DNA of 64,000 bases from Geotoga petraea (GTDB lineage: Bacteria > Thermotogota > Thermotogae > Petrotogales > Petrotogaceae). The notes under the pieces were generated by a model. That model was not told the DNA's origin, made no database searches, and saw nothing but the letters and a program-made list of their open reading frames with translations. Shown one piece after another: positions 23,550 through 38,339 of this stretch (position 1 is the first letter of the stretch; each line of letters begins with the position of its first letter). The stretch is taken from positions 124,001-188,000 of the forward strand of contig NZ_FMYV01000003.1 in the NCBI RefSeq assembly GCF_900102615.1, in the 5' to 3' direction. The translations under genes and the position numbers were made by a program.

Positions 23550-23601
23550 CCATCGTGCAGAGGAACATTCACGATGGCAACACAACTTATATGGGTAAGT
23601 T
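23550..23601. repeat. Two hairpins between convergent genes
   Basis: CCATCGTG / CACGATGG (23550-23557 and 23570-23577) with a 12-base loop, then AACTTA / TAAGTT (23584-23589 and 23596-23601). Neither is followed by a T tract on either strand, so they are not classical intrinsic terminators, although they occupy the position between pgeF and the convergent permease gene. Confidence 0.6.
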
Positions 23602-24256
23602 ATGATTCATTTATATACACACAATCTGTTAGGACCTTATCACCTTTTTGAACATCATTTGCAAAAGCCTCGCAATTTTTAGAACCGCAAGCTCCACAAT
23701 TCATACCAGGTAATTTTTCCAGGACAGGGTTATAATTTTCTTCTGTTTCATCCAATATTTCTTCTCTGCTAACAATCTTGCTTACAAAAAATGACATTAC
23801 CAATATTGCGGGGATAGTCAATAGATATCTTGTTAGTGCGAAGCTAATTCCAAGAAAACTAGATTCAACCATGAACATCACTATTTTAATTACAGCCCAA
23901 GAGCTTATTATGATAACAGTGTTGGCAACAGAAGCACCCTTTTTTAATAACGAATGAGTTACTGGAAAGGCTGCATAAATTGGACCAGCTGAAAAGGATC
24001 CTATTATAAAAGAATAGATTTTGCCTTTTATTCCAGAGCCATCGCCAAAATGTTTAATTATCACTTCTCTTGGTACCCATTGGTTAATTAAAGCGGATAT
24101 TATCATTATTGCTGGCATGATTTGGAGCATTTCTAAGAAAAACCCTTTTGTAATATTCAAAGCTTCAAAAAAAGCGTTTGGGTTATAAATAGGGGTTGTA
24201 AATATCAACAAACCAGCTATTATTATAAATTTGTATTTTTTTATTTTTTCAATCAT
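23600..24256 (-). CDS. YraQ-type permease (COG0701/DUF318), second half, with C-terminal Fe-S motif
   Basis: A 218-residue membrane protein of about five helices in the family of predicted permeases that includes YraQ and ArsP. The last 45 residues are soluble and carry NCGACGSKNCEAFANDV followed by a fourth Cys 17-18 residues on. This CxxCxxxxC...C pattern resembles the 4Fe-4S module of RnfB-like proteins, pointing to redox control or metal handling. Its ATG overlaps the stop of the first half by four bases (ATGA). Two-gene versions of this permease occur in anaerobes; most other members are one longer chain. Confidence 0.78.
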   Translation of the reverse strand: MIEKIKKYKFIIIAGLLIFTTPIYNPNAFFEALNITKGFFLEMLQIMPAIMIISALINQWVPREVIIKHFGDGSGIKGKIYSFIIGSFSAGPIYAAFPVTHSLLKKGASVANTVIIISSWAVIKIVMFMVESSFLGISFALTRYLLTIPAILVMSFFVSKIVSREEILDETEENYNPVLEKLPGMNCGACGSKNCEAFANDVQKGDKVLTDCVYINES

Positions 24257-24729
24257 AGTATGACCCCCATGAGAATAGCTATTATTATCGCCATGAAAAA
24301 TGCGGTTATATTTCTAACTATACTGAATTTTTTCTTGAAATACTTTTTTTCAATTGGAAATGTTGCAAAACCTACCATCGTCAATGTTGTTATAAAAGCA
24401 GCTATAGCTGTTAAGTTAGCTCCGCTTGTATACAAAGATTTAGATAATGGGAAAGCTATAAAAGCTGGAATGATAGTTACAGTACCTATAAGAGCACCCC
24501 ATAAAGTACTTACAAATTCGTTGGCGCTTCCCAAAAGGTTACGAATATAACTCTCTGGAATGATTGCCAAAACCCAACCTATTATCGCCATTATTCCTAC
24601 TATCTCTATCAACATTTCTTTCATCATAACCAAAGCATTTTTCAAAGTATCTTTAGTTTTTGGGACATCTTTTTTGAAAGACCATGCAAGAAACCCGCCT
24701 GCTCCGAATATTAGTAAAATAGTTGTCAA
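24253..24729 (-). CDS. YraQ-type permease (COG0701/DUF318), first half
   Basis: A membrane protein of about 158 residues with four to five helices and the conserved IPAFIAFPLSKSLYTSGANL stretch of the family. A GTG at 24738 lies inside the ribosome-binding site itself. TTG 24729, eight bases after GGAGG, is the better start. A -10 TATAAT on the minus strand (24756-24751) places transcription start near 24744, with a Crp-type palindrome centred about 41.5 bases upstream. Substrate unknown; organoarsenicals, metals or thiolated compounds are possibilities from relatives. Confidence 0.75.
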   Translation of the reverse strand: MTTILLIFGAGGFLAWSFKKDVPKTKDTLKNALVMMKEMLIEIVGIMAIIGWVLAIIPESYIRNLLGSANEFVSTLWGALIGTVTIIPAFIAFPLSKSLYTSGANLTAIAAFITTLTMVGFATFPIEKKYFKKKFSIVRNITAFFMAIIIAILMGVIL

Positions 24730-24773
24730 ATTGTCCACCTCCGTAATTTTATTATAAGAAAAAAAATAAAAAA

Positions 24774-24797
24774 ATACCGTGATCTATATCACGGTAT
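24774..24797. promoter_or_regulatory. Perfect 24-base Crp/Fnr-type operator
   Basis: ATACCGTGAT / ATCACGGTAT separated by CTAT, containing GTGAT-N4-ATCAC. Centre is 24785.5. It abuts the -10 TATAAT (24795-24800) of the plus-strand crp-like gene, so binding would block that promoter. It lies about -41.5 from the predicted start of the minus-strand permease operon, the class II activator position. Neither promoter has a good -35. Confidence 0.82.
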
Positions 24798-24817
24798 AAT
24801 ATATTGAGGTGATTATA

Positions 24818-25450
24818 TTGAATTTGGTTGATTTAATCAAGAAAGAATTTGATATCAAAAAGATGAACAAAATTTTTCTAAAGAAAGGAAGTATATATAA
24901 GAAACCAACAGATGAAATCAACAACATAACTTATTTGATTTCAGGGAAGTTGAAAATTGTAAAATACCTCCCATCTGGAAAAGAGCTAATAATAAGACAC
25001 ATTAATAAAAACAATACTTTTGCTGAAACATTGCTATTTTCTGTATCCAATTATCCTGCATATATAATAGCAGATATCGACTCAAAAATTGTAGAAATAA
25101 GTAAAGAAAAGATTTTGGAACATTTATCAGATATCAAGTTTACAACCGAATATATAAAATCTATTTCTGATAAAATAAAAGTTCTAACCGATAAAATAGA
25201 GTTTCTCTCTTTTGAAAATACGAAGAAAAAATTGGCTTATTATTTGATAAACCTTTATGAATTTCAAAAAAGCAAACATATATACATAGATAAATCTAAA
25301 GCAGAAATAGCCAGAATTTTCGGTTCTACAAGAGAAAATATATCAAGAAATTTTTCATCATTCGAAAAAAATAAAATCATCAAAATAATAGATAATCGTA
25401 AAATTGAACTAAAGAATATAGAAGTTTTAGAGGATATTCTTCTTTCATAA
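24818..25450 (+). CDS. Crp/Fnr-family transcriptional regulator
   Basis: A 210-residue regulator with an N-terminal cyclic-nucleotide-binding-type beta barrel (about 10-115), a dimer helix, and a C-terminal winged helix-turn-helix (KSKAEIARIFGSTRENISRNFSSFEK). There is no cysteine in the protein, so Fnr-type Fe-S oxygen sensing is excluded. Heme, NO or small-molecule sensing remains possible. A GTG at 24809 overlaps the ribosome site; TTG 24818 after GAGGTG is the likely start. It is divergent from the permease pair with a perfect palindrome between them, so it probably controls that operon and itself. Confidence 0.85.
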   Translation: MNLVDLIKKEFDIKKMNKIFLKKGSIYKKPTDEINNITYLISGKLKIVKYLPSGKELIIRHINKNNTFAETLLFSVSNYPAYIIADIDSKIVEISKEKILEHLSDIKFTTEYIKSISDKIKVLTDKIEFLSFENTKKKLAYYLINLYEFQKSKHIYIDKSKAEIARIFGSTRENISRNFSSFEKNKIIKIIDNRKIELKNIEVLEDILLS

Positions 25451-25451
25451 A

Positions 25452-26312
25452 TTATAATTCTATAGTTATTTCATCTATTATTACAGCTTTTCCGCCAACT
25501 TTGACTTTTTCATATATTCCTTCTTTTGATTCTACAATTGCTTTTATTTTTGATGGCTTTTTCATTTTATATCCTTGTTCAAAAACCATTTTTTTGTTAG
25601 GTTTGTAAATCCCCTGTTCAACAAAATAACTCGCTAGAGCACCACTTGCTGTACCTGTGGCTGATTCTTCTTTAATCCCCAAATTGGGTGCAAAATTTCT
25701 GCAAGAGGCATGAAAATTTTTTCTCTCCAAGTTAAAAATATGAAAACCCGCAGAATCGTTTTCAACACATATTTTAGCAATTTTATCGAAATTTGGAATT
25801 AAGAAGTTCATTTTGTCAAAAGATTTTATTGGAACAATTATATCTTTCAACCCTGTGGAAACTATTTGGACAGGGTATTCGGAATAAAAATCTTCTACAG
25901 AAATATTCAAAGCTTCTGCAATTATTTTTTTGTCTAAGTATTCTCCAAAATAAGGGATATTCTGGTCCATCATGATTTCTTCGTTTATGCTAACATCTAT
26001 ACCCAATAAACCAGCTTTAGTTTCTTGGTTGTATTTGCCGGGGGATATGATTCCCTTTTTATTCAATAGTGAAAAAGTAGCTATTGTTGCATGTCCGCAT
26101 AGATCAACTTCATCAACAGGTGTAAAAAATCTTACTTTAAAGTCAGCTTTATCTGATTTTGAAACAAAGGCTGTTTCTGAATAGCCTACTTCTTTTGCAA
26201 TGTACTTCATTTCTCCTTCTTTTAAATTGTCTGCGTTTAACACAACTCCAGCAGGATTTCCGCCATTTATACTATCAGTAAATGATGATAATCGGTAAAC
26301 TCTTATTTTCAT
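25452..26312 (-). CDS. PhzF-family isomerase/epimerase
   Basis: A 286-residue two-domain diaminopimelate-epimerase-like fold. It starts MKIRVYRLSSFTDSINGGNPAGVVL and contains GYSETAFV (catalytic Glu), RFFTPVDEVDLCGHATIAT and the second-domain ESATGTASGALASYF. These are hallmarks of PhzF/YddE proteins, which use a Glu as general acid/base; most have no known substrate. It converges with the crp-like gene with one base between stop codons and no terminator between them. Confidence 0.88.
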   Translation of the reverse strand: MKIRVYRLSSFTDSINGGNPAGVVLNADNLKEGEMKYIAKEVGYSETAFVSKSDKADFKVRFFTPVDEVDLCGHATIATFSLLNKKGIISPGKYNQETKAGLLGIDVSINEEIMMDQNIPYFGEYLDKKIIAEALNISVEDFYSEYPVQIVSTGLKDIIVPIKSFDKMNFLIPNFDKIAKICVENDSAGFHIFNLERKNFHASCRNFAPNLGIKEESATGTASGALASYFVEQGIYKPNKKMVFEQGYKMKKPSKIKAIVESKEGIYEKVKVGGKAVIIDEITIEL

Positions 26313-38323: not shown

Positions 38324-38339
38324 AGTGATATATATCACT
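38324..38339. promoter_or_regulatory. Perfect 16-base Crp/Fnr-type palindrome before bcd
   Basis: AGTGATAT / ATATCACT, containing GTGAT-N4-ATCAC, the same core as the site at 24774-24797. It lies 22 bases upstream of the bcd start codon, overlapping the probable -10/start region (TATATA or TATAGT around 38346-38337, minus strand), which would suit repression. Confidence 0.72.

Follow-up and report, generated by a model that had tools for sequence, protein, structure and literature searches.

A palindrome conserved upstream of a split Fe-S-tailed permease as the predicted class II operator of a CRP/FNR-family regulator in Geotoga petraea

The closest described system is a one-sentence prediction in C. 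tetani, where CTC0897-CTC0898, encoding a permease and a ferredoxin-like protein, was placed under the control of a divergent HcpR2 paralog (Rodionov et al., 2005; PMC1274295). A later characterisation of this predicted system was not found in the literature searched, and a search for YraQ/COG0701 permeases and for the CRP/FNR regulons of Thermotogales returned nothing direct. A correlation between residues 180/181 of such regulators and their sites was described in the same study (PMC1274295), and HcpR relatives act as activators (PMC1274295; PMC12750200). In P. gingivalis HcpR, Met68 serves as heme ligand (PMC12750200). As for promoter geometry, class II activator sites are centered at -41.5 (PMC5957442).

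The locus studied here, from Geotoga petraea, resembles the C. tetani genes in having a divergent regulator beside an operon for a permease and a ferredoxin-like protein. It shares with HcpR and HcpR2 a CRP/FNR fold devoid of the FNR cysteines, a palindromic operator and the correlation of residues 180/181 with the site. It differs from them by a GTGA instead of a GTAAC site and a glutamate instead of a proline at position 181 (GTGATnnnnATCAC with E181, whereas HcpR and HcpR2 combine GTAACnnnnGTTAC with P181), by the lack of an hcp target, by a lysine in place of Met68 and by the presence of a separate HcpR in the same genome. The class II promoters of E. coli CRP and FNR (PMC5957442) are similar in their center at -41.5, their -10 element without a -35 element and their R180/E181/R185 recognition helix, but the regulator studied here is local, serving a single operon, rather than global, and has neither cAMP contacts nor Fe-S cysteines. 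The permease belongs to the same fold family as the ArsP_1/YraQ proteins (PF03773), which include the Cu/Zn exporter SO_0444 and SaoE of the NCBIfam models; unlike these, it is split into two half-genes, the second of which carries an Fe-S domain, and its scores lie so far below the equivalog cut-offs that the substrate cannot be deduced from these models.

In the window, i.e., the whole stretch of 64,000 nucleotides that was analysed, the regulator gene reg (24818..25450, plus strand) encodes a CRP/FNR-family protein without cysteine, whose helix-turn-helix GSTRENISR bears R180, E181 and R185. Divergent from it are perA (24253..24729, minus strand), the first half of the split ArsP_1/PF03773 permease, and perB (23600..24256, minus strand), the second half, which bears a C-terminal PF04060 Fe-S domain; Cys 187, 190, 195 and 212 of PerB are invariant in the alignment. 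The likely start codons are TTG at 24818 for the regulator, suggested by a ribosome-binding site, and TTG at 24729 for perA, suggested by ortholog alignment, the perA reading frame being open from a GTG at 24738. The palindrome ATACCGTGAT-CTAT-ATCACGGTAT (24774..24797, center 24785.5, half-site GTGAT) has two perfect 10-bp arms and an asymmetric inner 4 bp. On the minus strand, the -10 hexamer TATAAT of the putative perAB promoter (24756-24751), whose first base lies 29 bp from the palindrome center, implies a perA start at 24744 and places the center at -41.5 for the permease. On the plus strand, a candidate TATAAT for the regulator (24795..24800), overlapping one operator arm, implies a start at 24807 and a center at -21.5. 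A -35 partner was sought for both hexamers and found for neither. An initial annotation of this DNA had proposed a palindrome between a Crp/Fnr-family gene and a divergent split permease with an Fe-S tail, centered at about -41.5 for the permease; all of this was borne out, including the likely start codons. It had also placed the palindrome inside the core promoter of the regulator, which agrees with the position of the box in the window, but this box is not conserved in relatives. At the other end of the regulator gene, its stop codon and that of a convergent PhzF-like gene are 1 base apart (25450-25452).

The palindrome by itself is no proof of an operator. Seven perfect N4 palindromes with 10-bp arms occur within the window, those other than the perA site being mostly terminator-like, and since palindromes of such arm length are not rare there, the decision has to come from conservation, which carries the case together with the fixed spacing. 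Across the 2.17 Mb of the genome, the extended form CCGTGAT-N4-ATCACGG has a single occurrence, but the short GTGA-N6-TCAC core shows no enrichment, with 9 sites vs 18 for the reversed control. A wider regulon in this genome was considered and rejected: among the 9 core sites, only the one at perA has a 6/6 match to the -10 hexamer at 29 bp, the other 8 being inside genes, terminator-like or devoid of a good -10. The window holds another perfect GTGAT-N4-ATCAC core (38325-38338), which lies shortly before an acyl-CoA dehydrogenase gene; it lacks a -10 at the spacing of class II sites and was set aside as a probable chance occurrence.

Then, regulator-linked perA orthologs were compared across the Thermotogota families f1, f2, f5 and f10. 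As the initial annotation had suggested checking, the palindrome recurs beside the same gene pair in related genomes: GTGA-N6-TCAC, with at most one mismatch, was found upstream of perA in 18 Thermotogota loci, a count that includes a locus of genome G015 with broken permease genes. The -10 hexamer begins 29 bp from the site center in 17 of these loci and 30 bp from it in the remaining one. This spacing is constant across four gene arrangements, the regulator being divergent as in the window, co-directional, convergent downstream of perB, or unlinked. In the unlinked case (G005), perAB is on contig 32 and the regulator on contig 10; the possibility that the latter is a pseudogene was discarded, its reading frame being intact. 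Whatever the gene order, the site accompanies perA in all 18 loci, and in Thermotogota other than the window organism it does not precede the regulator gene. Where a Thermotogota perA locus contains no regulator gene, which is the case for L037 and L092, no site was found either. Most of the f1/f10 genomes searched have one copy of CGTGA-N6-TCACG, at perA, the exceptions being G015 with 2 copies and G013 and G019 with none; hence, the regulator looks dedicated to one operon. In the G015 locus, the perA start frame meets stop codons and much of perA and perB is missing, with operator and regulator intact. This breakage is a recent loss.

Beyond Thermotogota, 80 named loci (Thermotogota, Bacillota, Spirochaetota, Thermoplasmata and others) were gathered with a perB profile, 79 of which have perA. 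A CRP/FNR gene is present in 61 of these 79 loci, mostly divergent in Clostridia, as in the window. The same regulator-permease pair thus occurs in Bacillota and Spirochaetota, often in divergent order; the palindromes differ there but are similarly placed, and those of Clostridia are GTTAC-N4-GTAAC or GTAAC-N4-GTTAC. For 70 sites picked on the palindrome alone, the best TATAAT match lies at 29 bp in 44 cases, vs a mean of 3.8 and a maximum of 10 in shuffles; a second spacing group, made of Clostridial loci, has its best -10 at 27 bp (15 sites), and the Spirochaetota loci L096, L099 and L102 reach only 4/6 matches at 29 bp. According to the criterion used, a site is present in 51 of the 61 loci with a CRP/FNR gene (and missing from 10) vs 3 of the 18 loci without (p 3e-7). 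When equal 160-bp regions are compared, the association gives p 0.03, since in many loci an intervening cupin gene shifts the site upstream. This small cupin-like gene, located between regulator and perA in many Clostridia (L124:3148-3504, L142, L152 and L154), is the first gene of the permease operon there, and the operator precedes it.

The regulators and their sites also vary together. The residue aligned to CRP E181 pairs with operator base -5, glutamate with G, proline with A and threonine with T, in operators that were located without use of base -5: E occurs with G/G in 19/20 cases, P with A/A in 13/14 and T with T/T in 22/22, and where the residue is serine the base is T or mixed. Because independent switches of residue and base are few, and sign tests over them cannot reach 0.05, these counts represent a strong regularity and not a formal test. 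The rule also agrees with the HcpR paralog of the same genome, which combines RPSLSR with GTAACATATGTTAC upstream of hcp, and the T-T pairing extends the correlation reported by Rodionov et al. (2005; PMC1274295). Hence, the tracking of base -5 by residue 181 identifies the site as the operator of the neighbouring regulator. What the sequences show is a site held at a constant spacing, linked to this regulator and matched in its base -5 by residue 181.

The regulator matches PF00027, PF13545 and PF00325, i.e., a cNMP-binding domain followed by a Crp-type helix-turn-helix, which assigns it to the CRP/FNR superfamily. Its structure model has a mean pLDDT of 91.5 and matches CRP and HcpR structures. 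Consistent with the earlier statement that it is not an Fnr-type Fe-S sensor, it contains no cysteine, no cysteine is invariant among its orthologs, and the cysteines that hold the FNR [4Fe-4S] cluster are missing. The cAMP contacts of CRP are also absent: R82 and S83 are replaced by Y and P in 17/17 Thermotogota regulators, and T127 by L or M.

Taken with the recurrence of the site at perA, these data make it highly probable that the palindrome serves as a dedicated operator for the regulator beside it, functioning as a class II activator site for perAB and covering the promoter of the regulator itself. In the proposed mechanism, the regulator dimer would read the GTGA half-sites through R180, E181 and R185 and, bound at -41.5, would act as class II activator of the perAB promoter, whose predicted layout is that of such promoters: a center near -41.5, a -10 and no good -35. 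Given the divergent gene order, the same occupancy would cover the core promoter of the regulator and probably limit its expression. The regulator, an HcpR paralog, would serve one operon and respond to a signal other than an FNR cluster or cAMP, probably also not through an HcpR-type Met-ligated heme. From this layout, we infer that perAB is activated rather than repressed. The distance from the regulator start codon to the site center is 32 bp in the window and has a median of 30 bp (13-44) in 29 divergent loci, so that a bound dimer would cover the core promoter or the leader of the regulator and autorepression is plausible; a conserved regulator-side -10 was sought in divergent relatives and none was found, hence the argument for autorepression is a geometric one. 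The model of the initial annotation, activation of the permease combined with repression of the regulator by itself, is therefore strongly supported in its first part by the -41.5 position in 17/18 Thermotogota loci over four arrangements and by the residue-base match. Its second part fits the geometry of the window and of the divergent relatives, but neither the regulator box nor, in other Thermotogota, the location of the site before the regulator is conserved.

The same geometry could be read in the opposite sense, the regulator repressing perAB by occupying the -35 region and being released from it by an inducer. The site does cover the -35 region, and fixed spacing alone is no proof of activation, a repressor over this region being also compatible with a fixed position. 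However, the absence of a -35 element together with a 29-bp register that is nearly invariant despite large divergence is typical of class II activation, and the HcpR relatives mentioned above are activators, which makes repression unlikely. A further reading would equate the regulator with HcpR and assign the permease to the NO-stress hcp regulon. The regulator and the NO sensor HcpR are paralogs; the regulator model has its best TM-score with HcpR (9day_A, 0.70), and the best sequence match of the regulator is the CRP-family protein 1o5l. The latter is T. maritima TM1171, which we take to be HcpR2. In addition, hcpR adjoins the permease-linked regulator in genome G023, where the two genes are in tandem (C1:1225117-1226553) and hcp is about 1.4 kb away. 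Identity with HcpR is nonetheless distinctly improbable. In the genome studied here, the regulator adjoins perAB, whereas hcp lies on contig 2 with a separate HcpR that has P181 and a GTAAC site; at this locus (L229, G000:C2:53500-60000), GTAACATATGTTAC precedes a 422-aa ORF and hcp, from which the HcpR-type regulator diverges. The position of Met68 is occupied by K in 16/17 Thermotogota regulators and by M in the HcpR of this genome, but it varies among HcpR-type rows (M in 9, H in 4, K in 4, others in 4) and is therefore a weak defining feature. In the tree, the regulator is placed on a long branch beside other permease-linked regulators and apart from HcpR2, with a moderate support of 94, so this separation is not fully supported.

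Dedicated-operator function also has to be weighed against the folding of the element. Read on the minus strand, in the permease direction, the palindrome forms a terminator-like hairpin (24757..24797), whose 10-bp stem (-13 kcal/mol) precedes the T-rich TTTTTTATTT; such sites occur in shuffles with a mean of 0.0. In co-directional f1/f10 loci, the regulator stop codon is immediately followed by longer arms (AAAACCGTGA/TCACGGTTTT) and a T tract, with the -10 still at 29 bp. These features would suit an element that is primarily an intrinsic terminator and whose placement with respect to the promoters is fortuitous, yet this we regard as very improbable indeed: Kosmotogales-type (f2) and Mesoaciditoga-type (f5) loci and those of Clostridia keep the core (GTGA or GTTAC) and its 29-bp distance to the -10 although they have neither the extended stem nor the T tract (f5 fold z -1.3), the regulator is located elsewhere in f5, residue 181 tracks the operator core, and in the window the hairpin is retained though no gene ends there. 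The hairpin is a lineage-specific addition to the operator. The arrangement in f1/f10, with extended arms and T tract right after the regulator stop, rather suggests that one element is probably both operator and terminator in these loci. Extended to the window, which would then have inherited the double structure, a class II operator of perAB combined with a regulator terminator in co-directional Thermotogota is a reasonable possibility to which we give somewhat less than an even chance; the stable fold and the -10 kept at 29 bp argue for it, but given its divergent gene order, the window has no evident target for a terminator. This dual function is compatible with the class II operator explanation, the two not being mutually exclusive.

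Regarding the permease, PerA and PerB both match ArsP_1 PF03773 above the gathering score and show a weak mutual match; they are homologous halves that most likely pair as a heterodimer into one permease. The Fe-S tail is a 4-Cys PF04060 domain in Thermotogota, Spirochaetota and Thermoplasmata, and in most Clostridia a ferredoxin-like mono-cluster domain, Fer4_13/Fer4_15 (e.g., L141:3926-4762). That two Fe-S domains with no relationship to each other occupy the same place in PerB suggests that the tail matters, and lends indirect support to the proposal of the initial annotation that the permease may be the redox-sensitive part; the tail might act in sensing, electron transfer or substrate binding. 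A structure model of PerB was of insufficient quality (mean pLDDT 53) and was left out of use. As a tentative generalization, about which our doubts outweigh our confidence, the locus may represent a widespread module of anaerobes, in which a one-operon CRP/FNR regulator controls a two-gene permease bearing either of the two Fe-S domains as a tail, transport being coupled to or gated by redox state, with a residue-181/base -5 code and an operator that doubles as regulator terminator in some lineages. What was predicted for one species in 2005 now has a concrete promoter architecture, shared by Thermotogota, Bacillota and Spirochaetota, and an explicit rule for regulator specificity; the initial annotation is further extended by the terminator-like hairpin, the kinship with HcpR and the spread across phyla. 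With practically a single operon per operator, reporter and footprint assays would be simple to carry out, and the inducing signal, once found, would expose the substrate of this Fe-S-tailed permease family. The genome also encodes another split ArsP_1 pair, which has no Fe-S tail (L230, G000:C9).
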